A stretch of DNA of 45,093 nt from Deltaproteobacteria bacterium. GTDB taxonomy: Bacteria > Myxococcota_A > Polyangia > Polyangiales > JADJMO01. How positions within the stretch are numbered: the stretch's first letter is position 1; each line of letters starts with the position of its first letter. Below are positions 26,323 through 45,093 of the stretch, piece by piece. The position numbers and the translations under genes are program-made. The stretch spans positions 1 to 45,093 of the forward strand of contig JALHOE010000047.1 of assembly GCA_022843175.1 (NCBI GenBank), read 5' to 3'. The notes beneath the pieces were generated by a model. It had not been told where the DNA came from. It did no database searches and saw nothing but the letters and a program-made list of their open reading frames with translations.

Positions 26323-26333
26323 CCGCTGCGGCT

Positions 26334-26413: not shown

Positions 26414-26417
26414 CGGA

Positions 26418-26443: not shown

Positions 26444-26505
26444 ACCCGTAATGGCTCCTCGCGGGGTGCTCGACCTCTTTGGATCGGGCTCCCCCCCGAA
26501 AGGAT

Positions 26506-28494: not shown

Positions 28495-28600
28495 CGCAAT
28501 CTCCTCGGACAGAAGGTAGTTCGGGCGACTATCCCCGTGGTCCCGGCGCAGGGCAAGCCGCCTGGCGTTACCAAGAAAAATCAACGTCCACCGGATGCGC

Positions 28601-28682: not shown

Positions 28683-28850
28683 ACCTGACGACGGCCCCTT
28701 CGGCGGTGGGTATCGAGCGTATTGCCATCAAGACGACGCGGATCCGACCTACCGCGTGTGGTCCGGCACGACCGACCCATCGTGCTGTGGTCCCAAGGGC
28801 GGACCCAGTAGTGAGTCGGTAGTGCGGCAGCCGAGGAATAGGTGGAGCGC

Positions 28851-28976
28851 CGCAACCGCAACCGCAGGCCCAGGCGCACGCTCAAGCGCAGGCGCAGGCG
28901 CAGGCGCAGGCGCAGGCGCAGGCGCAGGCGCAAGCGCAAGCGCAAGCGCAAGCCCAAGCCCAGCCGCAGCCGCCCG
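28851..28976. repeat. 21-unit hexanucleotide tandem array
   Basis: There are 21 consecutive 6-bp units. The centre is seven exact CGCAGG units (28887-28928) followed by four exact CGCAAG units (28929-28952), with degenerate units on both sides. The array ends three bases from the stop codon of the membrane-protein gene. The minus-strand frame reads as a run of Leu-Arg and is not a gene. The rest of the 485-nt gap (28495-28979) holds the inverted pair at 28601-28682 and nothing else I can support. Slippage makes the array a probable strain-variable locus. Confidence 0.93.
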
Positions 28977-28979
28977 CCG

Positions 28980-29630: not shown

Positions 29631-29660
29631 GCGTGAGCATCCCGCCCGCCGGTGGGGGTG

Positions 29661-29680
29661 GGCATGATCTCGGTCATGCC
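29661..29680. promoter_or_regulatory. candidate TetR operator
   Basis: GGCATGA-N6-TCATGCC is a perfect inverted repeat with 7-bp arms in the gap between the divergent membrane-protein gene (start 29630) and the TetR gene (ATG 29735). Size, symmetry and position are typical of a TetR-family operator controlling both directions. Confidence 0.6.
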
Positions 29681-29734
29681 GGCCGGAGCGCGGCCTTGCC
29701 GAAGTTGACCAAGCGCCTAAACCTATCGCCCAAG

Positions 29735-30361
29735 ATGCAGGATCGGACCCGCCTGAAGATTCTCGGCGCCGCGGACCGGCTGTTCGGCGAGCTCGGCTTC
29801 GACGCGACGACCACGCGCGACATCGCCGAGCGCTCCGGCGTCAACAAAGCCCTCATCCACTATCACTTCGGCACCAAGGACGAGCTCCTCGAGGCGCTGC
29901 TCGACGGCTACTACGCGCGCCTCACCGCCACGCTGACGGCGGCCCTCGGCAAGCGCGCCTCGATCCGGGAGCAGGCCGAGGACGTGGTCGACGCCTATGC
30001 GGACTTCCTCGCGGAGAACCGCACCTTCTGCTGCATCGTGCAGCGCGAGGTCGCGAGCGGAAGGCACGTCGAGCGGATCGTGGAGCGCACGCTCCCCGCC
30101 TTTCAGCTCGGAGTGCAGTGGCTCGCGGAGCTCTCGCCGCACGCTCCGGACGATCTCGAGCTCACCCACGTGCTCACCAGCGTCTACGGCATGGTGGTCA
30201 CCTACTTCACGCACGGACACGTGCTCCAACGGCTCAACGGCGTCGATCCGTTCGCGCCCGCGGCGCTCGAGAGCCGCAAGCGCCACGTGCGCCGCGTCGT
30301 CGCGCTCCTGTTCCGCGAGCTGCGGCGCAAGCCGGCACCCAAGAAAGGAAAGCGTCGATGA
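29735..30361 (+). CDS. TetR/AcrR family transcriptional regulator
   Basis: This 208-residue regulator has an N-terminal TetR helix-turn-helix (residues about 5-50). It reads I-L-G-A-A-D-R-L-F...T-T-T-R-D-I-A-E-R-S-G-V-N-K-A-L-I-H-Y-H-F-G-T-K-D-E-L, very close to the family consensus. The all-helical C-terminal ligand-binding domain has two adjacent Cys near residue 98. I took ATG at 29735, just before the HTH; TTG at 29696 has a better ribosome-binding site (GGAG 29685-29688) and would add 13 basic residues. The stop overlaps the start of the glycyl radical enzyme gene (ATGA at 30358-30361), so regulator and enzyme are cotranscribed and coupled. It probably represses its own operon and the divergent membrane-protein gene through the palindrome at 29661-29680. 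The ligand is unknown. Confidence 0.92.
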   Translation: MQDRTRLKILGAADRLFGELGFDATTTRDIAERSGVNKALIHYHFGTKDELLEALLDGYYARLTATLTAALGKRASIREQAEDVVDAYADFLAENRTFCCIVQREVASGRHVERIVERTLPAFQLGVQWLAELSPHAPDDLELTHVLTSVYGMVVTYFTHGHVLQRLNGVDPFAPAALESRKRHVRRVVALLFRELRRKPAPKKGKRR

Positions 30362-32871
30362 GCGCGCTCCACCCGAAGAACGCGGCGCAGAAGGAGCGGC
30401 TGCTCCGCGCCGAGCACTGGCTCTGCATGGAGCGCGCCCGCTACTACACCGAGGCGCACCGCGAGACCGAGGGGCAGCACCCGTCGTTGCGCGCGGCGAA
30501 AGCCCTCGCGCGCGTCCTCGAGAAGATGACCGTGCGCATCGAGCCCGACGAGCTCCTCGTGGGAAACCGCTCCACCAAGCTCATCGCGCCGCCCATCGCC
30601 CCCGAACGCGGCGACTTCACCTTCGTGTTCGAGCACCTCTTCGACGAGCTGAGGGCGTTTGGCTACCGCATCGAGCCGCACGACGAGCGCGTGCTCTTCG
30701 ACGAGCTCATCCCCTACTGGAGGGGCAAGACGGTGCGCGACGCGAAGATCGCCGCGCTCGAGTCGCACCAGCTCTCGAGCAAGCTCGACCTGTCGCCGGG
30801 GGAGGTGCGCCGCAAGCTGCGTAGCTTCGGCGTGCGCAAGCTCGTGCGGCTCGTCGACGAGGACACGCCGGAGACGCTCCGCGCGCGCGCGGTCCGCGCC
30901 GGTCGCCTGGCGCTCGAGCTGCCGCGGCTGGTCCGGGCGGTGCGCGCGGGCGCCGGGGACAACCTCAAGGGCCGCGGTCGCTGCACCGACACGCAGGCCC
31001 ACATCGTCCTCGGACACAAGAACGTGCTGCGCCTCGGGTTCTCGGGCATTCGCGAGCAAGCGCGCACGCGCATGGAGCACGCGCGCGACGACGGCGAGCG
31101 AGCGTTCCTCGAGAGCGTCGAGATCGTTTGCGACGCGATGCGCGCGTTCTCCGAGCGGTTCGCGGCGTTGGCGCGCACCGAGGCGAGCGCCGTCGCCGAT
31201 CCCGAGCGGCGCGCGGAGCTCGAGGGCATCGCCGACGCGTGCAGCCGCGTGCCCTGGCTCCCCCCGCGAACCTTCGCCGAGGCCGTGCAGTCGATGTGGT
31301 TCACGCAGAACGCGGCGATCATCAGCTACGGCGCGGGCAGCGGCATCACGCCCGGCCGCGTCGACCAGCTGCTGTTCCCGTACTTCGAGGCCGACCTGGC
31401 GAGCGGCGCGCTCACGCGGGCGCACGCGCTGCGGCTGCTCGAGGAGCTCATCGTCAAGTTGAACAACAACGTCGTCATCTGGCCCAACCTCGGCGGGGCC
31501 AAGCTCAACCACCTCGGCTCCGACGTCGAGAACATCACGCTCGGCGGGGTCGACGCGCACGGCAACGACGCGACCAACGAGCTCACCCACCTGTTCATCG
31601 AGGCGCTCGCCAACACCAACCTCGCGACCACCGCGTCGTTCCGCGTCTCGCAGAAGAGCCCGCGGGAGTTCGTGCGACAGGTGGTGGCGATCCACCGCCG
31701 CTCGAACTCCCCGGCCTTCCTCAACGACGAGACGGCCATCGCGGCGTTGGTCCGCGATGGATACGCCCTCGAGGACGCGCGCCAGTACTGTCTCGTCGGG
31801 TGCGTGGAGCCGAGCGGAAACGGCGACACCTACGGCGCGACGGGGGGCTCGAAGGTCTACTTCCCCACCGCGCTCGACATGGTGTTCAACCGGGGCCGGA
31901 CGACCTTCTTCGGCAACCGCGACGGCGTCGACACCGGGGATCCGTCGCAGATGGCCTCGTTCGACGAGGTGCTCGCGGCGTTCTACCGCCAGCTCGATTC
32001 GCTGGTGGAGTGGGTCACCGAGGCCACCAACCTGCGCGACGCGATCTGGGCCGAGCGGTTCCACAACCCGCTCATCTCGAGCACGATCGACGGCTGCATC
32101 GACAACGCGAAGGACATGACCGCGGGCGGCGCGCGCTACAACTTCGGCGCGGTCGGCGGCGGCGGCCTCGGCACGGTGGTGGACTCGCTCGCCGCCATTC
32201 GCAAATTCGTCTTCGAGGACCGCGTGGTCACGATGGCAGAGCTCGGCGAGGCGCTCGCCACGGACTTCCGCGGACGCGAGGCGCTGCGGCAGCGACTCTC
32301 GAGCGGGCCCCGCTTCGGCAACGACCTCGACGAGGTGGACAGCCTCGCGCGGGAGCTCGTCGCGCGCTTCTGCGCGAAGGTGCGCTCGCGAAAGACCGCG
32401 TGCGGCGGCCACTACAAAGCGAGCCTCATCTCCTATGGACTCAACGTCTACGAGGGCGCGCTCGAGCCGGCGACACCCGACGGGCGCCGCGCGGGCGAGC
32501 CGCTGTCCAACAGCATGTCGCCGAGCAACGGCGCCGAGCGAAGGGGCCCGACCGCGGCGCTGAGCTCGCTCGCGCGCATCGATCACACGGCGATCGGCTA
32601 CGGCAACTCGGTCAACATGCGCCTCCCGGTCGGCCTCCTCGCAACCGAGAAGGGCGTCGACAGCGCCGCGCACCTCGTTCGCGCCTACTTCGACAAGGGC
32701 GGCTTCCACCTGCAGTTCAACACCGCCGACTCGGCCACGCTGCGAGCGGCGCAGCGCACGCCGGACGCGTACGCCGATCTCATCGTGCGGGTGTCGGGTT
32801 ACTCCGCGTACTTCACGCGCCTCGGGCGCCGGATTCAGGACGACATCATCGGTCGCACGGAGCTCGCGTGA
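30358..32871 (+). CDS. glycyl radical enzyme (pyruvate formate-lyase superfamily), substrate unknown
   Basis: This 837-residue enzyme has a PFL-like domain (about 10-700) and a C-terminal glycine radical domain (about 720-837). The active-site loop is V-G-C-V-E-P, with thiyl-radical Cys482 and Glu484. This Cys-x-Glu arrangement marks dehydratase, lyase and decarboxylase members (glycerol dehydratase, choline lyase, arylacetate decarboxylases), not true pyruvate formate-lyase, which has two adjacent Cys. The radical loop R-V-S-G-Y-S-A has Gly814. I-S-Y-G-A-G-S-G-I-T-P-G-R occurs near 320-332. After the Cys the sequence is S-G-N-G-D-T-Y-G-A-T-G-G-S, which I cannot place in a known subclass. ATG at 30358 has AAAGGAA before it. 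Its stop overlaps the activase start by 4 nt. These enzymes are killed by oxygen, so it implies anaerobic or microaerobic use in this organism. Confidence 0.93.
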   Translation: MSALHPKNAAQKERLLRAEHWLCMERARYYTEAHRETEGQHPSLRAAKALARVLEKMTVRIEPDELLVGNRSTKLIAPPIAPERGDFTFVFEHLFDELRAFGYRIEPHDERVLFDELIPYWRGKTVRDAKIAALESHQLSSKLDLSPGEVRRKLRSFGVRKLVRLVDEDTPETLRARAVRAGRLALELPRLVRAVRAGAGDNLKGRGRCTDTQAHIVLGHKNVLRLGFSGIREQARTRMEHARDDGERAFLESVEIVCDAMRAFSERFAALARTEASAVADPERRAELEGIADACSRVPWLPPRTFAEAVQSMWFTQNAAIISYGAGSGITPGRVDQLLFPYFEADLASGALTRAHALRLLEELIVKLNNNVVIWPNLGGAKLNHLGSDVENITLGGVDAHGNDATNELTHLFIEALANTNLATTASFRVSQKSPREFVRQVVAIHRRSNSPAFLNDETAIAALVRDGYALEDARQYCLVGCVEPSGNGDTYGATGGSKVYFPTALDMVFNRGRTTFFGNRDGVDTGDPSQMASFDEVLAAFYRQLDSLVEWVTEATNLRDAIWAERFHNPLISSTIDGCIDNAKDMTAGGARYNFGAVGGGGLGTVVDSLAAIRKFVFEDRVVTMAELGEALATDFRGREALRQRLSSGPRFGNDLDEVDSLARELVARFCAKVRSRKTACGGHYKASLISYGLNVYEGALEPATPDGRRAGEPLSNSMSPSNGAERRGPTAALSSLARIDHTAIGYGNSVNMRLPVGLLATEKGVDSAAHLVRAYFDKGGFHLQFNTADSATLRAAQRTPDAYADLIVRVSGYSAYFTRLGRRIQDDIIGRTELA

Positions 32872-33617
32872 GCCCGAGCGAGGACTGCCGCGTCTTCGAC
32901 ATTCAGCGCTTCTCCATCCACGACGGCCCCGGCATTCGCACCACGGTGTTCCTCGAGGGCTGCCCGCTGCGCTGCGCCTGGTGCCAGAACCCGGAGTCGT
33001 TCGTCAGCGACGCGGCCCGCGCGATGACGCCCGCGGCGATCGTGGCCGAGGTGCTGCGGGATCGAGACTTCTTCGCGGTGAGCGGCGGCGGCATGACCGT
33101 ATCGGGCGGAGAGCCGCTGCTCCACCTCGCGCCGGTTCGCGCGCTGCTCGCGGAGGCCAAGCGCCATGGCCTGCACACCTGCGTGCAGACCTCGGGCGCG
33201 GTGCCCTCGGAGAATGTCGCGGCGGTGCTCGGGCTCGTCGACGTGTTCCAGTTCGACCTCAAACATATGAACGCCGAGCGCCACCGCGCGCTCACCGGCG
33301 CGACCAACGAGCGCATCCTCCGAAACGCGACCCTCTTGGTGGAGCGCGGCGCCACGGTGCAGTTCCGCACGCCCCTGGTGCCGGGCGTCAACGACGACGA
33401 GGAAAACCTCAACGCCCTCGCGCAGTTCTTCACCGGGCTCGGGATCACGACGATGGAGCTGGTCCCGTATCACCGGCTCTACCTGGAGAAGTACGCGTCG
33501 CTGGGTCTTCGGGCCCCGCGCGAAGATCTCGAGCCGCCATCGCCGAGCGAGCGTCGGCGCGCAGCGGAGCGTTTGCGCCGGGACGGCGTGCTCGCCCACG
33601 TCGACCCCCACGAATAG
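32868..33617 (+). CDS. glycyl radical enzyme activase (radical SAM), minimal PflA-like form
   Basis: This 249-residue radical SAM protein installs the glycyl radical on the upstream enzyme. It starts F-D-I-Q-R-F-S-I-H-D-G-P-G-I-R-T-T, characteristic of activases. It has C-x3-C-x2-C for the 4Fe-4S cluster (C-P-L-R-C-A-W-C, about 30-37) and S-G-G-E-P-L near 80 for SAM binding. Between the cluster and that motif there is no Cys-rich ferredoxin-like insertion, which most activases of dehydratase-type glycyl radical enzymes carry; length and layout match PflA. The start is GTG at 32868 overlapping the enzyme stop (GTGA), with GGAG five bases before. The TAG stop is the first three bases of an inverse palindromic repeat. 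Its assignment as activase is secure from sequence and context. Confidence 0.94.
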   Translation: MSPSEDCRVFDIQRFSIHDGPGIRTTVFLEGCPLRCAWCQNPESFVSDAARAMTPAAIVAEVLRDRDFFAVSGGGMTVSGGEPLLHLAPVRALLAEAKRHGLHTCVQTSGAVPSENVAAVLGLVDVFQFDLKHMNAERHRALTGATNERILRNATLLVERGATVQFRTPLVPGVNDDEENLNALAQFFTGLGITTMELVPYHRLYLEKYASLGLRAPREDLEPPSPSERRRAAERLRRDGVLAHVDPHE

Positions 33618-33716
33618 GCGCGCGCGTAAGCGAGCGCCTATCCCGCAGGCGCTCGCTTACGCGCGCGCCTATCTCGCAGGCGCTCGCTTACGCGCGCGCC
33701 TATCTCGCAGGCGCTA
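33615..33716. repeat. three palindromic repeat copies plus a truncated fourth at a convergent junction
   Basis: There is an inverse copy at 33615-33640 and forward copies at 33647-33671 and 33678-33702, then a truncated copy keeping only AGGCGCT (33709-33715). The forward copies form a 31-bp direct tandem. All loops are of the TTAC type. The activase stop TAG (33615-33617) is inside the first copy, and the M13 peptidase stop (33714-33716) overlaps the end of the truncated one. Confidence 0.95.
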
Positions 33717-35819
33717 CCAAACCTCGCAGCGATCCGCGCGGACCATTTTGCTCCCCGCCTTGCACTGAAACGCGCTCGCGAACTCCGGCATGTTGCTCAC
33801 CGGCCCGTTCACCCGCCACATCGGCGGCGAGTGCGGATCGACCTTGGTGAGCATCGCGCGGTACTGCGGGCGCGCGTTCTGGCACCACGCCTGGGCGTAG
33901 CCGAGGAAGAACTGCTGGTCGGGGGTGAAGTTGCCGACCGCGGGCGCGTCCTTGTGGGCGGATTTGTACGCGAGGTACGAGAGCTTGAGGCCGCCGAGGT
34001 CGGCGATGTTCTCGCCGAGCGTGAGCTTGCCGTTCACCTTGAGCTCGTTCTTCGGATCGGGGTCGGGCAGGGCGACGTAGCCGTCGAACTGCTTGACCAC
34101 GCACGACGCGCGCTTGTCGAACTCCTTGTTCACCTTCGCCGTCCACCACTCCGACATGTTGCCGTCGCCGTCGAACTGGCGGCCCTCGTCGTCGAAGCCG
34201 TGGGTGAGCTCGTGGCCCATCACCATGCCGATCGCGCCGTAGTTGAGCGCGTCGGGCGCCTTCTTGTTGTAGAACGGCGGCTGGAGGATGCCGGCGGGGA
34301 ACGACATCTCGTTCATGTTCGGGTCGTAGCCCGCGTTCACCGTGCTCGGCGGCCAGTACCACTCCTTGCGGTCGAGCGGCTTGCCGATCTTCGCGAGCTG
34401 GCGCTTGGTCTCGAACGCCTCGGCGGCGAGCACGTTCTTGGCGTGCGCCTCGCGGCTGATCACCAGCGTGTCGTAGTTACGCCACGCGTCGGGGTAGCCG
34501 ATCTTGTTCTTCACCTTGTGCAGCTTGTCGAGCGCGCGCTTGCGGGTGACGTCGTCCATCCAGGGGATCTGCTCGAGATCCTTCTGCATGATCGCCTCGA
34601 TCTCGCCGATCATCGCCAGCGTCTCGGCCTTGCCGTCGGGCCCGAAGGTGGCCTTCACGAAGCCCTGACCGAGCGCCTCTCCGAGCGAGGCCTCGGTCGA
34701 CTTCACGCAGCGCTTCCACCGCGGGAGGATCGCCTTGGCGCCGCTCAGGTTCTGCGAGGTGAAGCGGAAGTCCTCCTCGACGAACGCCTTCGGCAGCGAG
34801 CCGGCGCGCTCCTGCAGCACGTGCCACTTGAGGTACACCCGGAGATCCTCGGGCTTCTCCTTCTTGAGGTCGCCGAGCTTCTTCGCGGAGTTGAGCGACA
34901 CGACGTTGATCGGCGCGTCGGCCGCGACGTTGAGGCCGGTGACGAACGTCTCGAAGCCGAAGTCCGGCGCGAGCTTCACCAGCTGCTTGAGCGTCATCCG
35001 GTGGTAGACCTTCTTCGGATCGCGCCGCTCGACGCGGGTCATGGCCGCGCTCGCGAGCTGGGTCTCGATCTTCATGATCGTCTTCGCCGACTCGGACTCG
35101 AGCCCCGCGAGCGCGAGCATCTTGCCGACGTGCTCGACGTACGCGGCGCGGATCTCGTCGGGCTTCTTGCCCTTGTCGAAGTAGTAGTCGCGGTCGGGGA
35201 GGCCGAGGCCGCCCTGGTCGAGCTGGCCGATCACCTGCGTCGCGTCCTTGTAGTCCTGGCCCGAGCCGAACCCGACGAGCGGGTGGAGGCCGAGCGCGTA
35301 GAGCGCGCGCACCGTGGCGGCGAGGTCCTTGCTGTCCTTGAGGCCGTCGATGGTGGCGAACGCCTCGGCGAGCGGCTTGAGGCCGCCCTTCTCGATCGAC
35401 TCCTCGTCCATGCACGTCGTCCAGTAGTCGGCGAGCTTCTTCGCGTAGGGGTCGCTCGCGTTCTTGCCGGCGGCGTAGCCCTCGAGGATCTCCTTGAGAA
35501 CCTTCTGATTGCGCTCGTCGATGTCGTGGAAGCTGCGGCTCCACGAGGAGCGGTCCTCGGGGATCGGCGTGCTCTTCATCCAGCTGCCGCACGCGTAGGC
35601 GTAGAAGTCGTCGCACGGGCTGACCGAAGTATCGATCGCGTTCGCGTCGACGCCCGCGGGGGCCGCCTTGACGGGCAGGGCCGGCGGCGGGGGCGGCTTC
35701 GCAGCCTCAGCCGGAGCCGGGGGCATCGGGATCGGCGTGTCGACCGGGGGGCGGGGGGACGCGCTGCAGGCGACGATGCCGAGGGACAACGCGCCGACGA
35801 ACGAGCGGGCGAGGGACAT
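33714..35819 (-). CDS. M13 family metallopeptidase lipoprotein (neprilysin/PepO type)
   Basis: This 701-residue lipoprotein has lipobox I-V-A-C (Cys18), then a Pro/Ala linker (about 22-60) and the M13 N-terminal domain starting C-D-D-F-Y-A-Y-A-C-G-S-W (about 69-80). The catalytic domain carries H-E-L-T-H (His536, Glu537, His540), the third zinc ligand in G-E-N-I-A-D-L-G-G (Glu603) and the C-terminal C-x-V-W signature (C-E-V-W). N-A-G-Y-D-P-N-M-N-E near 500 matches the substrate-binding N-A-[YF] motif. It should cleave oligopeptides outside the inner membrane. Length fits the family (about 650-750). ATG at 35819 starts the signal peptide. It is divergent from two large metalloprotease genes, with a CRP-type site 59 nt upstream, suggesting joint control of a proteolytic set. 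Assignment is secure. Confidence 0.95.
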   Translation of the reverse strand: MSLARSFVGALSLGIVACSASPRPPVDTPIPMPPAPAEAAKPPPPPALPVKAAPAGVDANAIDTSVSPCDDFYAYACGSWMKSTPIPEDRSSWSRSFHDIDERNQKVLKEILEGYAAGKNASDPYAKKLADYWTTCMDEESIEKGGLKPLAEAFATIDGLKDSKDLAATVRALYALGLHPLVGFGSGQDYKDATQVIGQLDQGGLGLPDRDYYFDKGKKPDEIRAAYVEHVGKMLALAGLESESAKTIMKIETQLASAAMTRVERRDPKKVYHRMTLKQLVKLAPDFGFETFVTGLNVAADAPINVVSLNSAKKLGDLKKEKPEDLRVYLKWHVLQERAGSLPKAFVEEDFRFTSQNLSGAKAILPRWKRCVKSTEASLGEALGQGFVKATFGPDGKAETLAMIGEIEAIMQKDLEQIPWMDDVTRKRALDKLHKVKNKIGYPDAWRNYDTLVISREAHAKNVLAAEAFETKRQLAKIGKPLDRKEWYWPPSTVNAGYDPNMNEMSFPAGILQPPFYNKKAPDALNYGAIGMVMGHELTHGFDDEGRQFDGDGNMSEWWTAKVNKEFDKRASCVVKQFDGYVALPDPDPKNELKVNGKLTLGENIADLGGLKLSYLAYKSAHKDAPAVGNFTPDQQFFLGYAQAWCQNARPQYRAMLTKVDPHSPPMWRVNGPVSNMPEFASAFQCKAGSKMVRADRCEVW

Positions 35820-35877
35820 GGGCGGGAGCGTTCCGCCTGTTGGCGGCGCGCTTCAAGAGCGCTTTCTGCGGCTCGTC

Positions 35878-35893
35878 TGTGATGTAGGTCACA
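35878..35893. promoter_or_regulatory. candidate CRP/FNR-family binding site
   Basis: TGTGA-N6-TCACA is an exact match to the two half-sites of the CRP consensus. It lies 59 bp before the M13 start (minus strand) and 187 bp before the first metzincin start (plus strand) in a 260-nt divergent gap. No clear -10/-35 pair is seen. A hairpin GCGCT-TCAAG-AGCGC lies nearby at about 35850. Confidence 0.5.
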
Positions 35894-36079
35894 CCCGGCC
35901 CAGCAAAACTGTACCGCTCACCGACTGTGCCGGTTTCCCCGTGAAAAAGTCTCCTTCGGTCAACACCGGTTCATCCGGGGGTGGCGGGGAGGCCCGCTTT
36001 CATGCAGGATGCGCGGCCTCGTGGGGTTGGGCCGGCTCTCTCGTGCACGCGGGGAGCTCGAGTCGCTTTGGAGGATCCA

Positions 36080-39000
36080 ATGGCGCAGTGGCGTGGTCTT
36101 GTCGCAACGGTCGGGTTGATGGCCGGTCTTCTCGCGAGCGGCAGCTCTGGCTGCGCGAACGAGGCAGAGCCGATCTCGCAGGTGCAGCCGAACGCGCTCC
36201 ACAAGTCCACGTTCGTGCGGCGCGACGCCGACGGCGCGTACCGCGCGGACAGCGACTCCTGGTATTTCCGCGGCACCATTATCGACGTGCCGACCACCAG
36301 CTCCGTCGCCTTCATCGGCGCGGCGTCGGACATGTCGCGCGTGAAGTGGCGCATCGAGGAGTCGTTCCTCCTCGCGGTCCGCGAGGATCCGGACATCCTC
36401 GAGTCGGGCGACAAGTCCGGCGGCGTCATCGCGGCCTTCCCCATCACGAGCCACTTCGACATCCGCCGCGCCTACAACGCGCAGACCGGCGAGGAGCAGA
36501 ACCTCCTCGTCGAGAACACCACCGATCGCCCGTGGTACCAGCGCGATTACATCCGCGTCGACTGGTCGCGCAACACGATCAGCGAGAAGACCTGGACGTT
36601 CCCCGGCATCGAGCGCTTCTCGGCCGCGAGCTACTTCGTGCAGGACAGCAGGGACAAGGACGCGCCGGTCTTCAAGGACGACTACTTCGACATCACCGCG
36701 CGCTACACGATCTTCCCCGACATCGAGACGTGCTTCTACGTCTACCGCGACTTCAACTGCGGCCCGGCCGACATCGCCGCCCGCATCTCCTTCATGAAGG
36801 TGCCCGCGCGCGAGTTCGTGCCGCGCGAGTACCCGGACCGCATCACCGTCACCGACAAGAACGGCGACGCGATCCGCACCGTCAGCGGGACGCCGGTCAC
36901 GCTGCCGATGTTCGATCAGTACGGCGTCTTCCGCACCGAGCGCGCCGTCTACGACCAGCGCTTCGGCCCGCTCGAGAAGAAATACATCTACCGGATGAAC
37001 CAATGGAACATCTGGCAGGAGTGGTTCAAGAAGGGCCCCGACGGCAAGGTGCTCAAGGGCGCGGACGGTAAAGAGGTCCTCCTCCCGTACGGCGAGCGCA
37101 AGGTCCGCCCCATCGTCTACTTCCTCAACGCGGAGTGGCCGAAGGAGCTGTGGGGCGTGGCCGACAAGGTGGCCACCCAGTGGAACGACGCCTTCTCCGA
37201 GGCGGTCGCCGCGTCGCGCCTCCTCGAGAAGAAGCCGGGCTCCGCGATCGCGCACAGCGAGCTGCGCGCCGAGGTCGACGCGATGGGCGCGCGCAACGAG
37301 CGCGTGTTCATCCTCTGCAAGAACAACCCGGTCCTCGAGGGCGATCCCGCGGAGTGCGGGCCCAAGGGCACCGTCGCGCGCATCGGCGACCAGCGCTTCT
37401 CCTTCATGTACTGGGTGCACAAGCCGCAGGGCGGGGGGCTCCTCGGCTTCGGCCCGAGCTACGCCGACCCGATCACCGGCGAGCTCTTCTCGGCCGCGGC
37501 CTACGAGTACGGCGGTGAGAACGACCGCTACGCCCAGAGCGGCGTCGAGGTCGTCAACCTGCTCATGGGGAAGTGGACCGAGTTCGACTACGCGAACGGC
37601 ATCCACACCGACGTCTACGCCAAGCGCCTCGCCGCCGGCGAGGTGCCGGGCCCGATGGAGTCCGCCGCGACCGACAAACCCGCGGCCACGCCGGGCTCCA
37701 AGGACTTCGATCTCTTCAAGCTCCAGGCGCAGGTCGACAAGTCGCTCGACCGCCCGCTCCTCAGCACCGTCGCGCTCAAGGGCGTCCCGATCGCCACCGG
37801 CGGCTCCGCCGTCGACACGCTCGGGCGCATCAAGGGCACCAAGTTCGAGCGGCTCCTCTTCGACAACCCCGAGCTCAAGCCGCTCATCGGCAAGGCCAAG
37901 ACCGACAAGCTCGACGACGGAGACATCCGCAAGCTGTTCGACCTCATGGTCGGCCAGGATCCGGTGAAGCGCGATCGCAAGCGCCTCGAGTTCCTCGGCA
38001 AGCACGGCTGCTACTTCACCACCGAGTTCGCCGACGACGCCGTGGTGGGCATCGCCAAGGAGCTCGCCGACAAGTACGGCAAGGGCGAGACGCCCGCCGA
38101 GGAAGAGGCGATCCAGAAGAAGATCTGGCAGGAGATCCGCGAGCGCGTGCTCCTCGGTCTCGCGCAGCACGAGGTCGGTCACACCCTCGGCCTCCGCCAC
38201 AACTTCGAGGGCTCGATCGACGCGCTCAACTTCCACGACGAGTTCTGGAAGCTCAAGGGCGACAACCCGAAGTACGGCGCCCCCGCGACCGACGCCGAGA
38301 AGAACGGCAAGGTCACCGAGTACCAGTACTCGACGGTCATGGACTACGGTTCGCGCTTCAACAGCGACGTGCACGGTCTCGGCAAGTACGACTACGCGGC
38401 CATCCGCTTCGCCTACGGCGACGTCGTCGAGTCGTGGCCCGCGGGCACCGTCGCCGACCCGCTCTACAACGCGCCGCCGAACAGGTTCAAGACGCCGATC
38501 TTCAACGGCTACAGCGCCGAGGTCCTCCAGCACATCAACAAGGACGTGCGCCACTACACGCAGCTCCCCGGCGAGCTGAAGGGCGGCACCAAGGCGCTGG
38601 CCATGGGCGGGCGACAGCTGCGCCGCTTCAGCGACGTCGTCGCCGCCGCGCAGGCGCTCTATCAGGCGAGCGCGGGCAAGCCTTCGGCGGTGAAGACCGG
38701 CAGCCACAGCGGCGCCGATCCGAGCAAGGCGATCGACGTCGTGCCCTACCGGTTCTGCTCCGACGAGCTCGCCGACACGACCGACCACCCGCTCTGCCAC
38801 CGCTGGGACACCGGCCTCGACCAGTTCGAGATCGTTCGCGACGCGATGGAGCGGTACAAGCAGTACTACATCTTCGACGCGTTCTCGCGCGGTCGGGTCA
38901 ACGGCTTCTCGCTCGCCAACGGCTACCTCGGCAAGCTCGTGAGCCGCTACTTCCTGCCGGTGCAGATGCAGTACGCGCACTGGATGTTCTTCCAGGGCGA

Positions 39001-40069
39001 GCGCAACAAGCTGTGGAAGGAGCTCGACGGCGACGGCGCCGGCGTGGCCAACGGCTACATCTCCGACAAGGACTGGTTCAAGGATCCGGGCGGCGGTCTG
39101 CCCGCCACCGTCGCCACATACTGGGGCCTCGACCGCCTGGTCGACGTCCTCGCGACGCCGGACCTCGGCACCTACCAGGACTACAACAGCGACGGCATCT
39201 TCCGTCAGGCGGCCGGCGTGTACGCGTGCGGCAGCGGCCCCAACCCGGTCGCGTGCAAGTCGAGCGCGACCCAGCTGGTGCTCGATCTCGGGAGCGGCGC
39301 TCGCTACCTCAACACGCAGTACGAGCGCGGCACCGGCTCGAGCTACTTCATGCGCATCTCGAACGCGGGCGGCATCTACGACAAGATCGCCGCGCTCCTC
39401 GCGCTCACCTACGACGGCACGAGCTTCCTCGGCCGCGACGTCACCAACGACCTCACCTATCGCGTCGGGTTCTACCTCGCGTATCCCAAGGCGATGACGG
39501 CGGTGTTCGGCGGCATCGCGTCCGAGACCCACGACAACTACTCGTGGCGTTGGTCGATCTCGGGCTCGAAGGTGACGCTGATGTCGCCCGACGTGTTCGC
39601 GACCCGCGGCGCGCTCGACGGCATCCCCGAGCCCGCCAAGCTCGCGGGCAAGCCCGTCGATTCGCAGTGGTACTTCTTCTACAAGGCGTACGCGCTGTAC
39701 TTCTCGATGGCGCAGTTCAAGTCGAGCTTCGCCCAGTCGTACAACGACGCGGTCCGCGTCTACTGCACCGGCTGCGGCGAGGGCTTCACGCCCGGCGCCG
39801 GCACCACGGTGGTGAAGTTCACCGACCCGCTCTCCGGCAAGGAGTACGCGGCGGTCGACTTCGGCACCGGGCGCTTCAGCCCCGGCGCGCAATTGGTCAA
39901 GAAGGGCATCGAGCTGGTGAAGCTCTACGACGAGGCGAGCAAGCGTCCCTCCGAGGATCCCGATCGCAGCGCCGCGGTCGCCGATGCGCTCAGCGCGCTC
40001 GCCTACCACATCGAGACCCTCGATCTCGTTCGCGGTCTCTACGCCGAATACGGCGCGACGTCGTTCTGA
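36080..40069 (+). CDS. giant zinc-dependent metalloprotease lipoprotein A (DUF4953-like metzincin)
   Basis: This 1329-residue lipoprotein has signal peptide with lipobox ending S-S-G-C (Cys25). A large beta-rich N-terminal part (about 30-600) precedes the metzincin signature H-E-V-G-H-T-L-G-L-R-H (His697, Glu698, His701, His707) and a Met-turn-like V-M-D-Y (about 755). The phrase G-L-G-K-Y-D-Y-A-A-I-R-F-A-Y-G after it is typical of the zinc-dependent metalloprotease group with DUF4953. The remaining roughly 550 residues are unassigned and contain a C-x2-C (C-T-G-C) near 1230. The start ATG at 36080 follows GGAGGA. By family knowledge it would be a surface or periplasmic endopeptidase. It is followed 44 nt later by a full-length paralogue, with which it shares every domain, so the pair is a tandem duplication. 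DUF numbers are from memory, not a search. Confidence 0.9.
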   Translation: MAQWRGLVATVGLMAGLLASGSSGCANEAEPISQVQPNALHKSTFVRRDADGAYRADSDSWYFRGTIIDVPTTSSVAFIGAASDMSRVKWRIEESFLLAVREDPDILESGDKSGGVIAAFPITSHFDIRRAYNAQTGEEQNLLVENTTDRPWYQRDYIRVDWSRNTISEKTWTFPGIERFSAASYFVQDSRDKDAPVFKDDYFDITARYTIFPDIETCFYVYRDFNCGPADIAARISFMKVPAREFVPREYPDRITVTDKNGDAIRTVSGTPVTLPMFDQYGVFRTERAVYDQRFGPLEKKYIYRMNQWNIWQEWFKKGPDGKVLKGADGKEVLLPYGERKVRPIVYFLNAEWPKELWGVADKVATQWNDAFSEAVAASRLLEKKPGSAIAHSELRAEVDAMGARNERVFILCKNNPVLEGDPAECGPKGTVARIGDQRFSFMYWVHKPQGGGLLGFGPSYADPITGELFSAAAYEYGGENDRYAQSGVEVVNLLMGKWTEFDYANGIHTDVYAKRLAAGEVPGPMESAATDKPAATPGSKDFDLFKLQAQVDKSLDRPLLSTVALKGVPIATGGSAVDTLGRIKGTKFERLLFDNPELKPLIGKAKTDKLDDGDIRKLFDLMVGQDPVKRDRKRLEFLGKHGCYFTTEFADDAVVGIAKELADKYGKGETPAEEEAIQKKIWQEIRERVLLGLAQHEVGHTLGLRHNFEGSIDALNFHDEFWKLKGDNPKYGAPATDAEKNGKVTEYQYSTVMDYGSRFNSDVHGLGKYDYAAIRFAYGDVVESWPAGTVADPLYNAPPNRFKTPIFNGYSAEVLQHINKDVRHYTQLPGELKGGTKALAMGGRQLRRFSDVVAAAQALYQASAGKPSAVKTGSHSGADPSKAIDVVPYRFCSDELADTTDHPLCHRWDTGLDQFEIVRDAMERYKQYYIFDAFSRGRVNGFSLANGYLGKLVSRYFLPVQMQYAHWMFFQGERNKLWKELDGDGAGVANGYISDKDWFKDPGGGLPATVATYWGLDRLVDVLATPDLGTYQDYNSDGIFRQAAGVYACGSGPNPVACKSSATQLVLDLGSGARYLNTQYERGTGSSYFMRISNAGGIYDKIAALLALTYDGTSFLGRDVTNDLTYRVGFYLAYPKAMTAVFGGIASETHDNYSWRWSISGSKVTLMSPDVFATRGALDGIPEPAKLAGKPVDSQWYFFYKAYALYFSMAQFKSSFAQSYNDAVRVYCTGCGEGFTPGAGTTVVKFTDPLSGKEYAAVDFGTGRFSPGAQLVKKGIELVKLYDEASKRPSEDPDRSAAVADALSALAYHIETLDLVRGLYAEYGATSF

Positions 40070-40113
40070 TCGGCGCCCTGCAAAAGCTTCCCTGACTGGT
40101 TGTGGAGGAAACG

Positions 40114-43100
40114 ATGGCCTCGAAGTTCTTGCGACTCGCCGGAATGCTGACGCTCCTCGGAGCGCTCGGGAGCGGCTCTGTCTCGTGCGCGGGCGAACGC
40201 GACGAGATCAGCCGCGTGCAACCGAACGCGATCCCGAAGTCGATGTTCGTGGCGAAGGACGGCAACGGCGCCTACCTCGACGGCGTCGAGAGCTGGTACT
40301 TCCGCGCCACGGTGATCGACGCGCCGGCGGCCAACTCGGTGCCGGCGTACATCGGGACGGCGGGCGACATGGCCCGCTTGAAGTGGAAGATCGAAGAGAG
40401 GTTCCTCCTCGCGATCCAGGAGAACCCGGACGTCGAGGGCACCGGCGACGTGAAGGGCGGCGTCGTCGCGGCCTTCCCGATCGTGAGTCACTTCGACATT
40501 CGCCGTCAGTACAACGCCAACACCGGCGAAGAGGCGAACGTCGTCGAGGAGAACACGACCGATCGCCCGTGGTGGGCGCGGGACTACATGCGCGTCGACT
40601 GGTCGAACAACAAGATCAGCGAGGCGGGCTTCGTGTTCCCGGCCTACGAGTCGGTGAGCGCGGCGACGTACTACGTGCAGGACGAGAAGGACGAGAACCA
40701 CCCGATCTTCACCAAGGACTACGTCGACATCACCGCCCACTACACGGTGAAGCCCACGCCCTCGACCTGCTACTACATCTACCGCTCGTACACCTGCGGC
40801 ACCGGCCAGGTCTCGGCGCGCCTCTCGTTCATGAAGGTGCCCGAGCGCGACTACCTCCCGCGCGACTACCCGGATCGCCTCCCCATCCTCGACGAGGAGG
40901 GGCAGACGATCCGCTCGCTGAGCGGCACGCCGTACTCGCTGCCGATGCAGGACCAGTTCGGGTTCTTCCGCGTGGAGCGCGCGATCTACGACCAGCGCAT
41001 GGGCACGCTCGAGAAGCGCTACGTCTACCGCGCGCGGATCTGGAACATCTGGCAGTCGTGGTTCGTGCGCGACAACGGCAAGATCGTGTTCGAGGACGGC
41101 ACCGCGCTCCCCGAGACCGAGGCGCGGTCGCTCATCGCCTACGGCAAGAAGAAGCCGAAGCTCCTGCCGTACAACGAGCGCAAGGTCCGGCCGATCGTCT
41201 ACTTCATCAACCACGATTGGCCGAAGGACATGCTCCCGATGGCGCGCGACGTGGCCAACGGCTGGAACGACGCGTTCCAGGAGACCGTCGCCGCCAATCG
41301 CCTCCTCGAGAAGAACCCGACGGTCGCGATGGGAGATCTCCGCGCCGAGGTCGACGCGATGAAGGCGCGCAAGGAGAACGTCTTCGTCCTCTGCGAGAAC
41401 AACCCGGTCAAAGAGGGCGATCCCGAGGCGTGCGGGCCCGTCGGCACCGTCGCGCGGCTCGGCGACCAGCGCTTCTCGTTCATGTACTGGGTGAGCAAAC
41501 CGCAGCCCACGGGGCCGCTCGGCCTCGGTCCGAGCTACTCCGACCCGATCACCGGCGAGCTGTTCTCGGCGGGCGCGCACCTCTACGGCGCGGCGCTCGA
41601 CACCGCGGCGCAGAAGGGCCTCGAGATCGTCAACCTCCTCAACGGCAAGTTCAAGGAGAACGACTACATCGAGGGCGTCGCGACCGACGAGTACGCCAAG
41701 CGCTTGGCGAAGGGCGAGGTCCCCGGCCCGTCGTCCGCGTTCAAGGACACCGTGCCCGGCACGCCCGGCTTCGATCTCGAGAAGCTCAAGGCGCGCGTCG
41801 AGAAGACGCTCGACCGCCCGCTCCTCGACACCATCGCCAAGAAGGGGCTCCCCGAGGCGAAGGGCCCGTCCGGTCTCGATCGCATCAAGATGATCAAGGG
41901 CACGCCGCTCGAGCGCGCCATCCTCGACAACCCGGAGACGCGCGCGATGCTCGGCAAGCCGCGCGACGCGGCGCTGTCGGACGACGATCTCCACGCCGCG
42001 ACCGACCTCCTCTTCGGCAAGGATCTACGCCGCGAAGAGGACGAGCGCGCGCGCTTCCTCGGCGAGCACAACTGCTTCTACCCGACGGACTTCGCCGACG
42101 ACGCGATGTTCGGCCTCGCCAAGGAGCTCCTCAAGAAGTACGGCAAGGGCGGCAACGCCGCCGAGGACGAGGCGATCCAGAAGAAGATGTGGCAGGAGAT
42201 CCGCCACTACTACGCCCGTCAGGTCATGGAGCACGAGGTCGGCCACACGGTCGGCATGGCCCACAACTTCGAGGGCTCGAGCGACGCGATCAACTTCTTC
42301 GACGAGTTCTGGAAGCTCAAGGGCGACAAGCCGAAGTACGGCGCGGCGATGACCGACGCGGAGCGCGACGGCAAGCTCGTCGAGTTCCAGTACTCGACGG
42401 TCATGGACTACACCTCGCGGTTCAACAGCGAGATCCACGGCCTCGGCAAGTACGACTACGCCGCCGTGCGCTTCGCCTACGGCGACGTCGTCGAGGCGTG
42501 GCCGGCCGGCAAGGTGATCGACCCGCTCTATTCGGTCGATCCCACGAAGTTCCAGTTCAACCTCGGGTTCCAGGGCTACAGCGCCGAGTACCTCGACGGC
42601 ATCAACCGGAACTACCGGCACTACACCCAGATCCCCGGCGAGTTCGCCGACGGCACCAAGTCGCTCTTCAAGATGGGCCGCGAGCTCCGCAAGTTCGGCG
42701 ACGTCTACCAGAACGCCTCCGAGCAGTGGCGTCACGTCGCGGTCGAGAAGCGCGGCGGCGTGAAGACCGGCGCGTGGAAGCCCACCTCGGCCAACGCGAA
42801 GATCTACGACATGTCGAAGCCGATCGACGTCGTTCCCTACCGCTGGTGCGGCGATCAGCTGGCGGGCTCGGTCGGGCGCCCGATGTGCGAGCGCTGGGAC
42901 ACCGGCATCGACGGGTTCGAGGTCGTGAAGGACGCGATCGACCGCTACCGCTCGTACTACGTGTTCGACGCGTTCGTCCGCGGTCGCGTCGACGGTTTCA
43001 ACCGCCTGCGCAGCTACCTCGGCACCGTGTCGAGCCGCTACTTCAGCCACGTCCACCGCCACTACATCCACTGGCTGTTCAACGGCGTGTACGGCGCGCG

Positions 43101-44178
43101 TCCCTACTACTGGGCCAACGTGCTCAACAAGAACAGCGACGGCGTGAAGAACGGGTGGATCACCGATCCCGATTGGTACAAGGACCCGGCCGGCGGTCTC
43201 CCCGCGAGCACCGCGGTCTACTGGGGCCTCGATCGGATCGTCGACGTGCTCGGCGCGCCGGACGTCGGCACCTACGCGGCAGATCCCGTCACCGGCGTGT
43301 TCGCCCAGACCGCGCCGACGATCTTCGGCTGCACCGCCGAGGGCAGCCCGACGCGCTGCCCCACCGACGCGAGCCAGTTCACCCTCGGGATCGAGGACGG
43401 CGCTCGCTACCGCTACACCGTCTACGACACGTCCACCGGTTACTACGGCATGGACAGGGTCAAGGTGATGGGCTCGTTCTACGACAAGATGGCGGCGCTC
43501 CTGTCGGTCACCGACAGCAACGCGAACTTCGTCGGTCAGGACACGACCAACGCCACGAGCTATCGCATCGGCTTCTACCTCGCGTATCCCCGCGCGCTGT
43601 CCACGGTGTTCGGCGGCATTACCACCGACAACCTCGACCAGTACGCGTGGCGCTATCAATACGACGCGGCGACGAGCAAGCCCACGTTCACCTCGTCGGA
43701 CGTGTTCGCCCAGCTCGGACGCGACGACTGGGCCGATCCCGACCCCACCAAGCTCGCCGGCAAGCCGGTGAACTCGGAGTGGTTCCTCTACTACAAGGCG
43801 TACGCGCTGCTCTTCTCGATGGCGGAGTTCCAGGCGAACTACTCGCAGTCGTGGAACGACGCGGTGCGCGTGTGGTGCGTCGGCTGCGGCGAGGCGTTCA
43901 ACCCCGGCGCGTCGATCCCCACCACCGCGTTCGTAAACCCGCTCTCGGGCAAGGAGTACGCGGCGATCAAGTACGGCGACGGGCGCTCCTCGCCCGGCTT
44001 CCAGCTCATCGAGCGCGGCAAGGTGCTCGCCAAGGCGCTCGCCGACGCCAACCTGCTCGCCGAGTCGCCGGAGAAGTCCGCGCGGGTCGCGAGCGCGACG
44101 GCGGCGCTGAACGAGCATGTAAAGCTGCTCGATCTCGTGCGCGGCCTCTACGCGGTGTACGGCTACTCGCGGTTCTGA
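40114..44178 (+). CDS. giant zinc-dependent metalloprotease lipoprotein B (paralogue of A)
   Basis: This 1354-residue lipoprotein has lipobox S-V-S-C (Cys25). It aligns with protein A end to end, for example at V-Q-P-N-A near 35, N-T-T-D-R-P-W near 150, R-K-V-R-P-I-V-Y-F near 360 and a C-terminal L-D-L-V-R-G-L-Y. Its metzincin motif is H-E-V-G-H-T-V-G-M-A-H (His707, Glu708, His711, His717), with V-M-D-Y-T as the Met-turn, and G-L-G-K-Y-D-Y-A-A-V-R. All zinc ligands and the catalytic Glu are intact, so both copies should be active. The start ATG at 40114 has GGAGG at 40104-40108; an upstream start four codons earlier is less likely. Divergence between the copies suggests different substrates or a processing cascade. 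It is cotranscribed with A and ends before two hairpin repeats. Confidence 0.9.
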   Translation: MASKFLRLAGMLTLLGALGSGSVSCAGERDEISRVQPNAIPKSMFVAKDGNGAYLDGVESWYFRATVIDAPAANSVPAYIGTAGDMARLKWKIEERFLLAIQENPDVEGTGDVKGGVVAAFPIVSHFDIRRQYNANTGEEANVVEENTTDRPWWARDYMRVDWSNNKISEAGFVFPAYESVSAATYYVQDEKDENHPIFTKDYVDITAHYTVKPTPSTCYYIYRSYTCGTGQVSARLSFMKVPERDYLPRDYPDRLPILDEEGQTIRSLSGTPYSLPMQDQFGFFRVERAIYDQRMGTLEKRYVYRARIWNIWQSWFVRDNGKIVFEDGTALPETEARSLIAYGKKKPKLLPYNERKVRPIVYFINHDWPKDMLPMARDVANGWNDAFQETVAANRLLEKNPTVAMGDLRAEVDAMKARKENVFVLCENNPVKEGDPEACGPVGTVARLGDQRFSFMYWVSKPQPTGPLGLGPSYSDPITGELFSAGAHLYGAALDTAAQKGLEIVNLLNGKFKENDYIEGVATDEYAKRLAKGEVPGPSSAFKDTVPGTPGFDLEKLKARVEKTLDRPLLDTIAKKGLPEAKGPSGLDRIKMIKGTPLERAILDNPETRAMLGKPRDAALSDDDLHAATDLLFGKDLRREEDERARFLGEHNCFYPTDFADDAMFGLAKELLKKYGKGGNAAEDEAIQKKMWQEIRHYYARQVMEHEVGHTVGMAHNFEGSSDAINFFDEFWKLKGDKPKYGAAMTDAERDGKLVEFQYSTVMDYTSRFNSEIHGLGKYDYAAVRFAYGDVVEAWPAGKVIDPLYSVDPTKFQFNLGFQGYSAEYLDGINRNYRHYTQIPGEFADGTKSLFKMGRELRKFGDVYQNASEQWRHVAVEKRGGVKTGAWKPTSANAKIYDMSKPIDVVPYRWCGDQLAGSVGRPMCERWDTGIDGFEVVKDAIDRYRSYYVFDAFVRGRVDGFNRLRSYLGTVSSRYFSHVHRHYIHWLFNGVYGARPYYWANVLNKNSDGVKNGWITDPDWYKDPAGGLPASTAVYWGLDRIVDVLGAPDVGTYAADPVTGVFAQTAPTIFGCTAEGSPTRCPTDASQFTLGIEDGARYRYTVYDTSTGYYGMDRVKVMGSFYDKMAALLSVTDSNANFVGQDTTNATSYRIGFYLAYPRALSTVFGGITTDNLDQYAWRYQYDAATSKPTFTSSDVFAQLGRDDWADPDPTKLAGKPVNSEWFLYYKAYALLFSMAEFQANYSQSWNDAVRVWCVGCGEAFNPGASIPTTAFVNPLSGKEYAAIKYGDGRSSPGFQLIERGKVLAKALADANLLAESPEKSARVASATAALNEHVKLLDLVRGLYAVYGYSRF

Positions 44179-44193
44179 TTCCCGGGCGGCGGG

Positions 44194-44259
44194 TAGGCGC
44201 TCGCTCACGCGCGCGCCTATTCGGGTGCGTCAGCCAGGCGCGCGCGTCAGCGAGCGCCT
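44194..44259. repeat. inverted pair of the 26-nt palindromic repeat at a convergent junction
   Basis: There is a forward copy at 44194-44219 (loop TCAC) and an inverse copy at 44236-44259 (loop GTCA). They fill the 97-nt gap between the convergent metalloprotease B and bactofilin genes. Confidence 0.95.
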
Positions 44260-44275
44260 TCCGCCGCGAACCCCT

Positions 44276-44629
44276 TCACTCCAACTCCGCCATCGTGCAC
44301 TGCCCCTGAAACACTGCGCCGCGCTCGATCGAAATCTGCGGCGAATGGAGGTTCCCCACCACCTTGCCCGGCGCGTAGATCTCGATGGCGGTCTTCGAGC
44401 GGATGTTCCCGTTGAACTCGCCGCCGCGGACGATCACCGTCGCGACGTCGACCTCGGCGTGGACATCGGCGCCGTCGCCGATGATGAGGGTGTCGTCGCT
44501 GCGGATCTCGCCGTGGAACGCGCCGTCGATCCGCACGCAGCCGTCGAACGAGAGCTTGCCCTCGAACCGGGTGCCGCGACCGAGCAGCGCGGTGATCTCG
44601 GTCGACCCCCGCGAACCCGCCTGATTCAT
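44276..44629 (-). CDS. bactofilin family cytoskeletal protein
   Basis: This 117-residue protein has the bactofilin core. A short tail (1-10) is followed by I-T-A-L-L-G-R-G-T-R-F-E-G-K-L-S-F-D-G, then a regular right-handed beta-helix with short turns such as I-G-D-G-A-D-V-H-A-E-V and V-V-G-N-L-H-S-P. No signal peptide or membrane segment is present. Bactofilins polymerise without nucleotide; in myxobacteria they shape cells and position chromosome or division proteins. ATG at 44629 gives the usual short N-terminus; the longer frame to 44692 is Arg-rich and unlikely. It stands alone, divergent from an exported protein and convergent with metalloprotease B. No ParA or M23 gene is next to it, although bactofilins are often near M23 peptidases. 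Confidence 0.92.
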   Translation of the reverse strand: MNQAGSRGSTEITALLGRGTRFEGKLSFDGCVRIDGAFHGEIRSDDTLIIGDGADVHAEVDVATVIVRGGEFNGNIRSKTAIEIYAPGKVVGNLHSPQISIERGAVFQGQCTMAELE

Positions 44630-44796
44630 TGGGCGCGACTGTAACGGTCGGTCGCCGTGCGGGCAAAACAGACGTTTCCGCCGGGCACGCAACCGCGCGT
44701 CAGCAATCGAACGCCCGGGCCCCCCGGCGCCCCGTCAGCCGGGTGACGGAGGCCGTTTTCCCCGGGCAAACCCACTCAATTCCTGCCGAAACCAGC

Positions 44797-44813
44797 TGGG
44801 ATCGAAACTTGCT
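44797..44813 (+). promoter_or_regulatory. candidate sigma54 (-24/-12) promoter
   Basis: Bases 44799-44813 read GG-N10-GC within GGGATCG...TTGCT, with the exact -24/-12 spacing and a full TTGCT at -12, but two mismatches in the -24 element. It lies about 70 nt before the GTG at 44885. The rest of 44630-44884 shows no gene or repeat. Confidence 0.3.
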
Positions 44814-44884
44814 GTGAGGCCGCCGCCGCCGGAGCTACCGTCCGCGCAGTCGTCGGGCCGACTGGCCCCCAAGGAGTACCGACC

Positions 44885-45093
44885 GTGATCACCCGCTCGC
44901 TCCAACTTCGCACCGCCCTCGTCCTCGTAGGCGCCGCCACCGCGCTCTGCGCGACCAATGCCTTCGCGCAGCCGGCCACCCCGCCGGCCGCGGGCACCGC
45001 CGCGCCGACGACTCCGGCCCCGGCACCGGCTGCCGGCACCGAGGATCCGACGAAGAAGAAGCCGGCGACCCCGGGCGCCACGGAGACGACCCC
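44885..45093 (+). CDS. exported Pro/Ala-rich protein, 5' part only
   Basis: Only the first 69 codons are in the window. Residues 1-30 form a Sec signal peptide with a hydrophobic core (L-V-L-V-G-A-A) and an A-F-A cleavage site followed by Gln-Pro. The following sequence is Pro/Ala/Thr-rich linker ending in K-K-K-P-A-T-P. The start is GTG at 44885, with AAGGAG at 44871-44876 eight bases before it. The functional domain lies beyond the window edge, so no role can be given. A possible sigma54 promoter precedes it. Confidence 0.75.
   Translation, partial: MITRSLQLRTALVLVGAATALCATNAFAQPATPPAAGTAAPTTPAPAPAAGTEDPTKKKPATPGATETT

Follow-up and report, generated by a model that had tools for sequence, protein, structure and literature searches.

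Tandem genes for giant metzincins

This study concerns two genes, termed A and B, that lie in tandem in a 45,093-nucleotide (nt) stretch of DNA from a Deltaproteobacteria bacterium; the whole of this stretch is referred to as the window. Gene A (36080..40069, plus strand) encodes a metzincin of 1329 amino acids (aa) with a lipoprotein-like start, and gene B (40114..44178, plus strand) encodes a paralogue of 1354 aa that is 57% identical to A. Both are intact open reading frames (ORFs), 44 nt apart and each preceded by a GGAGGA-like ribosome site. The zinc-binding motif reads HEVGHTLGLRH in A (residues 697-707; 38168..38200) and HEVGHTVGMAH in B (residues 707-717; 42232..42264), and is followed in both, at the same spacing of 43 residues, by the Met-turn STVMDY (residues 751-756 and 38330..38347 in A; residues 761-766 and 42394..42411 in B). 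An M13 peptidase gene is divergent from A across a gap of 260 nt. An earlier note on this DNA had described two paralogues of these lengths and this spacing, with intact H-E-V-G-H motifs and divergent from the M13 gene, and its coordinates and motifs were right; its account of a tandem pair of metzincins, probable lipoproteins, with a lipoprotein-like M13 protein opposite was likewise supported.

Signal-peptide-like hydrophobic starts were detected in A and B, and the first Cys is residue 25 in both, giving a predicted signal peptide plus putative lipidated Cys at 36080..36154 in A and at 40114..40188 in B. This N-terminal Cys was conserved in 79 of the 81 rows of a family alignment, the other 2 rows having gaps. 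The predicted mature proteins begin with CANEAEPI (A), CAGERDEI (B) and CSASPRPP (M13), and A and B thus carry Ala at position +2 and Pro or Glu at position +7. According to one report (PMC3222651), many inner-membrane lipoproteins of Myxococcus xanthus are marked by Lys at +2 and many matrix lipoproteins by Ala at +7. This sorting rule, as given there, comes from a different myxobacterium than the host of the window; A, B and the M13 protein have neither residue, which makes the outer membrane the default guess for all three. The starts of A and B indicated that they are most likely held on the outer membrane as lipoproteins, where they may be exposed at the cell surface.

The composition of A and B (GC content 0.67; GC at third codon positions, 0.96) did not differ from that of neighbouring genes, and a foreign origin on grounds of composition was considered and rejected. 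Matches to B were found in 187 of 317 genomes of the class (E 0.001), and hence the family is not a chance construct. A set of 79 loci, drawn from the best 80 of 264 confirmed stretches, was obtained by scanning named genome contigs. Most were labelled Myxococcales, Myxococcota or Deltaproteobacteria; the remaining labels were other names of myxobacteria, plain bacterium or proteobacterium and, in one case, Bdellovibrionales. Family genes were present in 74 of 135 sampled Myxococcota genomes, often in several copies.

A profile search of stop-to-stop frames detected two family genes, always on one strand, in 17 of the 79 loci. This count was derived from 18 loci with two matches, one of which (L121:4395-8702) has just one family gene, divided between two frames at the zinc motif, probably through gene breakage or misassembly; in another (L083), about 4 kb separates the pair. 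In a few other genomes, one in-frame stop was seen within a family match. The window genome carries a second tandem pair on another contig (C150), beside isc-like genes that were named from their start sequences, and the same arrangement was found in three relatives (G183, G184 and G185). Five genomes of the order each had one match that was 56-58% identical to B, as a single gene in other surroundings. For the relatives G182 to G185, no match near 57% identity to B was present among the matches listed. A and B were sisters in the tree (support 97/97), which places their duplication in the lineage of the window after the split from the five 56-58% orthologues.

Family identity and predicted structure

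The Pfam model PF16313 (DUF4953, Met-zincin) scored 40.2 bits with A and 31.2 bits with B, above its cut-off of 24.2 and with only about 30 of 316 positions covered, and matched 21 of 21 members of an alignment of relatives (E 0.1). PF17148 (DUF5117) was not listed for A or B singly even at E 10. A profile of the 21 aligned relatives was compared by hhalign with five DUF5117-DUF4953 proteins encoded elsewhere in the class, in other genomes, and positions 221-487 matched the DUF5117 part with a probability of 99 and an E value of 7.6e-18. The corresponding part of B (residues 212-488; 40747..41577) takes in the strand and the helix with which the metzincin core begins. For the part from the zinc motif onwards, a block containing the zinc motif and Met-turn matched at E 3.2e-15 (81-row alignment) and a C-terminal block at E 3.7e-13 (21-row alignment). 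Column-shuffled (19 shuffles), reversed and unrelated profiles gave a best E value of 0.07; these controls apply to the whole-profile comparison and not to the two latter blocks separately. Because the three blocks occur in the same order as in DUF5117-DUF4953 proteins, the profile comparisons identify A and B as enlarged members of this kind of metzincin. An NCBIfam scan of A and B gave nothing above a cut-off. When the PDB was searched by sequence, neither A alone nor the family profile had a match below E 0.05; the best for the profile were motif-level matches, above that value, to matrix metalloproteinases (MMPs) and other metzincins.

Conservation of the active site was examined in the 81 aligned rows, most of which came from three scan patterns, one containing HExGH, so that a mild bias attaches to the motif counts. 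The three His and the Glu of the zinc motif were identical in 81 of 81 rows and its Gly in 77, and the Met and Tyr of the Met-turn were identical in all 81. These intact, active-looking sites suggest that A and B would bind zinc and be catalytic. One member of the second tandem pair (L007:5614-10014, L054:10018-14484) reads HEMGHLMSMEH, with Gly changed to Ser and the three His kept, and is possibly a changed enzyme. A further DUF4953 motif match (24.8 bits), outside the matches to the giant family, was seen in the window genome within an open frame of 1069 aa (contig C18:33055-33231, locus L150).

The best family match covered a 1328-position profile from position 30 or earlier to position 1280 or later in 69 of the 79 loci. 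Eight of the remaining 10 are on contigs shorter than 12 kb, where a number of genes are evidently truncated. The flanks are therefore an integral part of the family and not modules attached to it, and the alignments indicate that the architecture of about 1330 residues is conserved in Myxococcota. The earlier note had put more than 500 unassigned residues on each side of the catalytic core; this holds for single-sequence Pfam scans only, and in the profile comparison a portion of each flank corresponded to DUF5117/DUF4953. Its further suggestion of new domains for binding prey or polymer found no support in that form, as the flanks are family-conserved and partly of known type, and an N-terminal barrel-like part gave only weak, ambiguous fold matches (Z below 5). 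The flanks may or may not bind prey or polymer.

An AlphaFold2 model of residues 30-1229 of the 1329 residues of A, based on 81 sequences, had a mean predicted local distance difference test (pLDDT) value of 86.4 and a predicted template modelling (pTM) score of 0.92. In the model, the N-terminal part is rich in beta structure, helices interrupt the core, and the C-terminal part is mostly helical. A separate model of the core (residues 330-830; pLDDT 83.1, pTM 0.79) was subjected to a VIA comparison. Rows 1-32 were metzincins by name, including MMPs, ADAMs, fragilysin, astacin types and ulilysin; the top match was the catalytic domain of karilysin (Z 9.5, root mean square deviation 3.9, 143 residues aligned). 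Row 33 was the protease OgpA (Z 5.2), and the next was an unrelated fold (Z 3.4). Re-alignment of the large model reached at best a Z of 4.8, with the Bacteroides fragilis toxin. The N-terminal part resembled lipocalin, PsbO and designed-barrel folds at Z 2-3, which is too weak for a name. Overall, the modelled core of A aligns best with the metzincin catalytic domain.

The barrel family and the surroundings of A and B

Clustering of the genes around the loci detected a family of beta-rich proteins, mostly of 300-500 aa, whose genes immediately adjoin the metzincin gene and share its strand. A signal peptide was visible in several members. One member matched a general outer-membrane barrel model of NCBIfam (1.9e-5), and the family matched one outer-membrane protein in the PDB (E 0.015); Pfam scans of 5 and of 18 members detected no TonB-dependent receptor domain. 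This putative outer-membrane beta-barrel family is referred to here as the barrel family. Its profile (304 positions) matched in 36 of 101 family loci, some of which are the same stretch twice.

Co-occurrence was examined in whole genomes with two profiles, at thresholds of E 1e-10 for the barrel and E 1e-30 for the metzincin. A sample of the class (n = 59) comprised 32 genomes with both, 1 with the protease only, none with the barrel only and 26 with neither; the corresponding numbers for a sample of the phylum (n = 86) were 42, 5, 0 and 39. The union of 135 Myxococcota genomes contained 69 with both, 5 with the protease only, none with the barrel only and 61 with neither. The protease-only genomes were G174, G201, G323, G345 and G372, the first of which had a barrel match at 1.5e-10, just outside the threshold. 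Five families held genomes with both and genomes with neither side by side, and two of the five also held one protease-only genome each. At E 0.001, the barrel was matched in all 33 metzincin-containing genomes of the class sample and in 1 of the 26 metzincin-free genomes (G066, a weak partial match at 6.7e-4).

Adjacency was scored in the class sample for 45 of 45 barrel places and 88 of 98 metzincin places; the 7 weakest and 3 others, of G174, were omitted, which can only lower the count. Of the barrel hits, 34 of 45 lay within 600 bases of a metzincin match, all 34 were on the same strand, and the barrel was upstream in 30. A looser linkage was seen in G254 (L190:7137-8363, 13320-17564), in which a barrel gene and another giant metzincin gene are about 5 kb apart with a few genes between. 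The near-obligate co-occurrence suggests that the barrel and the giant metzincins work together, putatively in physical contact.

The single barrel hit of the window genome lies at the very beginning of contig C165 (bases 148-1059). There it is followed by a peroxiredoxin-like gene, as in G182, G183 and G185, in which the barrel gene adjoins a bactofilin gene. In the window, a bactofilin gene lies beyond B (44276..44629, minus strand; Pfam PF04519, E 9.7e-27), its start being uncertain and the ORF extending to 44692. It is followed by a plus-strand frame that begins at a GTG codon and runs off the contig (44885..45093). These last 209 bases read as a signal peptide and an Ala/Pro/Thr-rich linker, and C165 opens with such a linker. 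The translations and synteny indicate that a single gene is probably split between them, with the window frame as the probable 5' end of the barrel partner. No exact overlap of at least 15 bases was found between the ends of the window and C165. If the halves do match, the order would be M13 (minus), A (plus), B (plus), bactofilin (minus) and barrel (plus).

The M13 gene (33714..35819, minus strand) encodes 701 aa with a lipoprotein-like start, both Pfam M13 domains (E 3.4e-115 and 4.8e-75) and the motifs HELTH and ENIAD, and its best PDB match was 9eyg (E 1.8e-138); by sequence it is an ordinary full-length peptidase of the PepO/neprilysin type. A tblastn search (E 1e-5) of all 101 family loci found M13 in only one, the window itself. 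An earlier count on called genes in 98 loci, made with a gene caller that missed some metzincin genes, had the same outcome. G182 and G185 have the bactofilin gene immediately next to the M13 gene, and no metzincin gene separates them. The same junction in G183 seems to be occupied, across a contig break, by a Mur-ligase-like gene that was named from its sequence (L166:8552-9894, L147:7843-10680). G184, of the same genus, had no good match to M13, a close bactofilin or the barrel, and is uninformative on this junction.

A and B probably entered the bactofilin-M13 junction by insertion in the lineage of the window, although the neighbourhood alone cannot separate insertion from loss in both relatives, which weighs against this account. 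With insertion and loss alike, a control region common to M13 and A is not a conserved feature. A conserved M13-A-B unit was accordingly rejected as a candidate. The proposal of the earlier note that three surface metallopeptidases share one control region is not supported as a statement about such a unit, the five close orthologues also being single genes elsewhere. No sigma-70-like promoter was found at 35700-45093, which says little in so GC-rich a genome. The M13 gene is probably a neighbour and not part of the system.

A second lineage-specific difference was observed further along the window. The genes at 16370-33617, between a gene at 14550-16106 and M13, encode among others a TetR regulator, a glycyl radical enzyme and a protein of 2330 aa. 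G185 (L149) lacks them at this place, and the counterparts of the 14550-16106 gene and M13 adjoin there. The glycyl radical enzyme (30358-33617) is PFL-like and fell below the cut-offs of the NCBIfam models listed. Beside it lies a gene that, from its start sequence, was named as a probable radical-SAM activase, and the two form an anaerobic-type pair.

Function, rival explanations and comparison with known systems

We lean, by a modest degree, towards an explanation in which A and B are zinc endopeptidases of the metzincin kind that are held as lipoproteins on the outer membrane and work with a dedicated barrel protein. They would be exported by the Sec pathway, lipidated and transferred to the outer membrane, where they would associate with the barrel, which would either display the enzyme or take up or release its products. 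Extracellular or envelope proteins, the presumed substrates, would be cut in the metzincin cleft. A and B would have arisen by duplication and been placed between bactofilin and M13, near the barrel gene, probably by a lineage-specific insertion. A wider proposal, which we put forward tentatively and with less than even confidence, is that giant metzincin lipoproteins and the barrel family form a near-obligate two-part surface machine across Myxococcota that has been gained and lost as a whole, in which the barrel would hold the protease on display or let its peptide products through, as a protein-digesting counterpart of the Sus-type systems of Bacteroidota.

Several observations weigh against this explanation. 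The residue at position -3 of the lipobox is Ser in both A and B, off the usual consensus, and Foldseek searches of the PDB with the 1200-residue and core models gave no match at E 0.001. The barrel family has hardly any database matches: the Pfam model OMP_b-brl was detected in 2 of 18 members (best E 1.4e-6), and 5 of 18 aligned ends finished in Phe or Tyr. The sequences behind the barrel profile came from genes next to metzincins, which favours the finding of that kind, and the sampled genomes are related, so that a Fisher value for the co-occurrence is no true probability. In the class sample, 11 of the 45 barrel hits, including that of the window genome, were not within 600 bases of a metzincin match, several of them being at contig ends or fragments themselves. 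No barrel match was found within the stretches around the close orthologues of A and B. Between B and the putative barrel gene of the window lies bactofilin on the opposite strand, and the contig end interrupts that barrel gene, whose membership is drawn from synteny.

The main rival is that the enzymes are outer-membrane lipoproteins that face the periplasm and process or quality-control envelope proteins, the barrel being a substrate or client. Co-occurrence and adjacency fit a protease-client pair equally well, lipidation alone gives no surface exposure, and per-genome counts in the class sample are one to three barrel hits and often several metzincin matches. A large multi-copy family that has tandem copies in 17 of the 79 loci and is missing from 61 of the 135 genomes looks more like one for nutrition or interaction than for housekeeping; this is weak evidence, and we judge the periplasmic role unlikely while giving it appreciable weight. 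A quite different reading would treat the barrel link as a product of shared genome ancestry and A and B as ordinary degradative DUF4953-type metalloproteases with no special partner. A Pfam Met-zincin model exists, and both proteins pass it, and absence from whole families explains part of the co-occurrence. This reading is improbable given the coupling of presence and absence inside five families (the two with a single protease-only genome included), the 34 of 45 barrel hits that stand beside a metzincin gene on its strand, and the lack of a barrel match, even at E 0.001, in 25 of the 26 class-sample genomes without a metzincin.

The proposal that A, B and M13 are a jointly controlled prey-digestion set, with new binding domains in the flanks, draws on the shared divergent gap and on the lipoprotein-like starts of all three proteins. 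In a study of Myxococcus xanthus vesicles (PMC4158809), an M13 peptidase and an M10A/M12A peptidase (MXAN_0805) are listed, the latter being at most a possible member of the present family. The occurrence of M13 in a single family locus, the bactofilin-M13 neighbours that lack A and B in G182 and G185, and the family-wide conservation of flanks that are partly DUF5117/DUF4953 make this set a proposition to which we attach little credence. We retain, as the preferred explanation, outer-membrane metzincin lipoproteins that act with a barrel partner. The link predicts that removal of the barrel would leave the proteases lost, mislocalised or silent.

To our knowledge, extracellular proteolysis by predatory or scavenging Myxococcota is known from few enzymes. 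The present family combines intact active sites, presence in more than half of the sampled genomes and a genomically linked barrel. The open-access literature yielded nothing on DUF4953 or DUF5117, and searches on metzincins in myxobacteria and on bactofilin and the outer membrane yielded nothing on a metzincin-barrel system. In Pfam and NCBIfam scans, neither the giant metzincin nor the barrel was named by a curated model of its own. The protease core is of a known kind, and the giant lipoprotein form with its near-obligate barrel partner was not found in the open-access literature searched.

The closest known proteins are the DUF5117-DUF4953 proteases (PF17148, PF16313), with which A and B share, in unchanged order, a DUF5117-like part, HExxHxxGxxH, the Met-turn with the block that follows it, and a C-terminal D-G-D block. 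A and B differ from them in length (about 1330 residues, compared with open frames of 897-980 in the five compared), in about 160 additional, mostly helical residues between the DUF5117-like part and the zinc helix, and in having an extra N-terminal barrel-like part, a longer C-terminal part, a lipoprotein-like start and a barrel partner; PF17148 scores on neither protein alone. The catalytic domains of karilysin and MMPs, fragilysin and other metzincins share the core fold and zinc site with the model of A (Z 9.5 for karilysin, 6-7 for fragilysins), whereas sequence similarity is confined to the region of the zinc motif and the core of A and B is split by a helical insert. Among the M13 peptidases (PepO, Zmp1, neprilysin), the divergent neighbour is an ordinary full-length member; no relation to A and B was seen, and the M13 zinc site differs (HELTH...ENIAD). 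SusC/SusD-type pairs, which consist of a barrel and a surface lipoprotein, offer a comparison of working only. As in those pairs, an outer-membrane barrel gene, here a predicted one, stands beside a putative lipoprotein gene; in contrast to them, the barrel family is small, has no TonB-receptor domain in Pfam scans and is paired with a putative lipoprotein that is a protease. If the proposal is true, this two-part surface machine would be the protein-digesting counterpart of Sus-type systems in Myxococcota.

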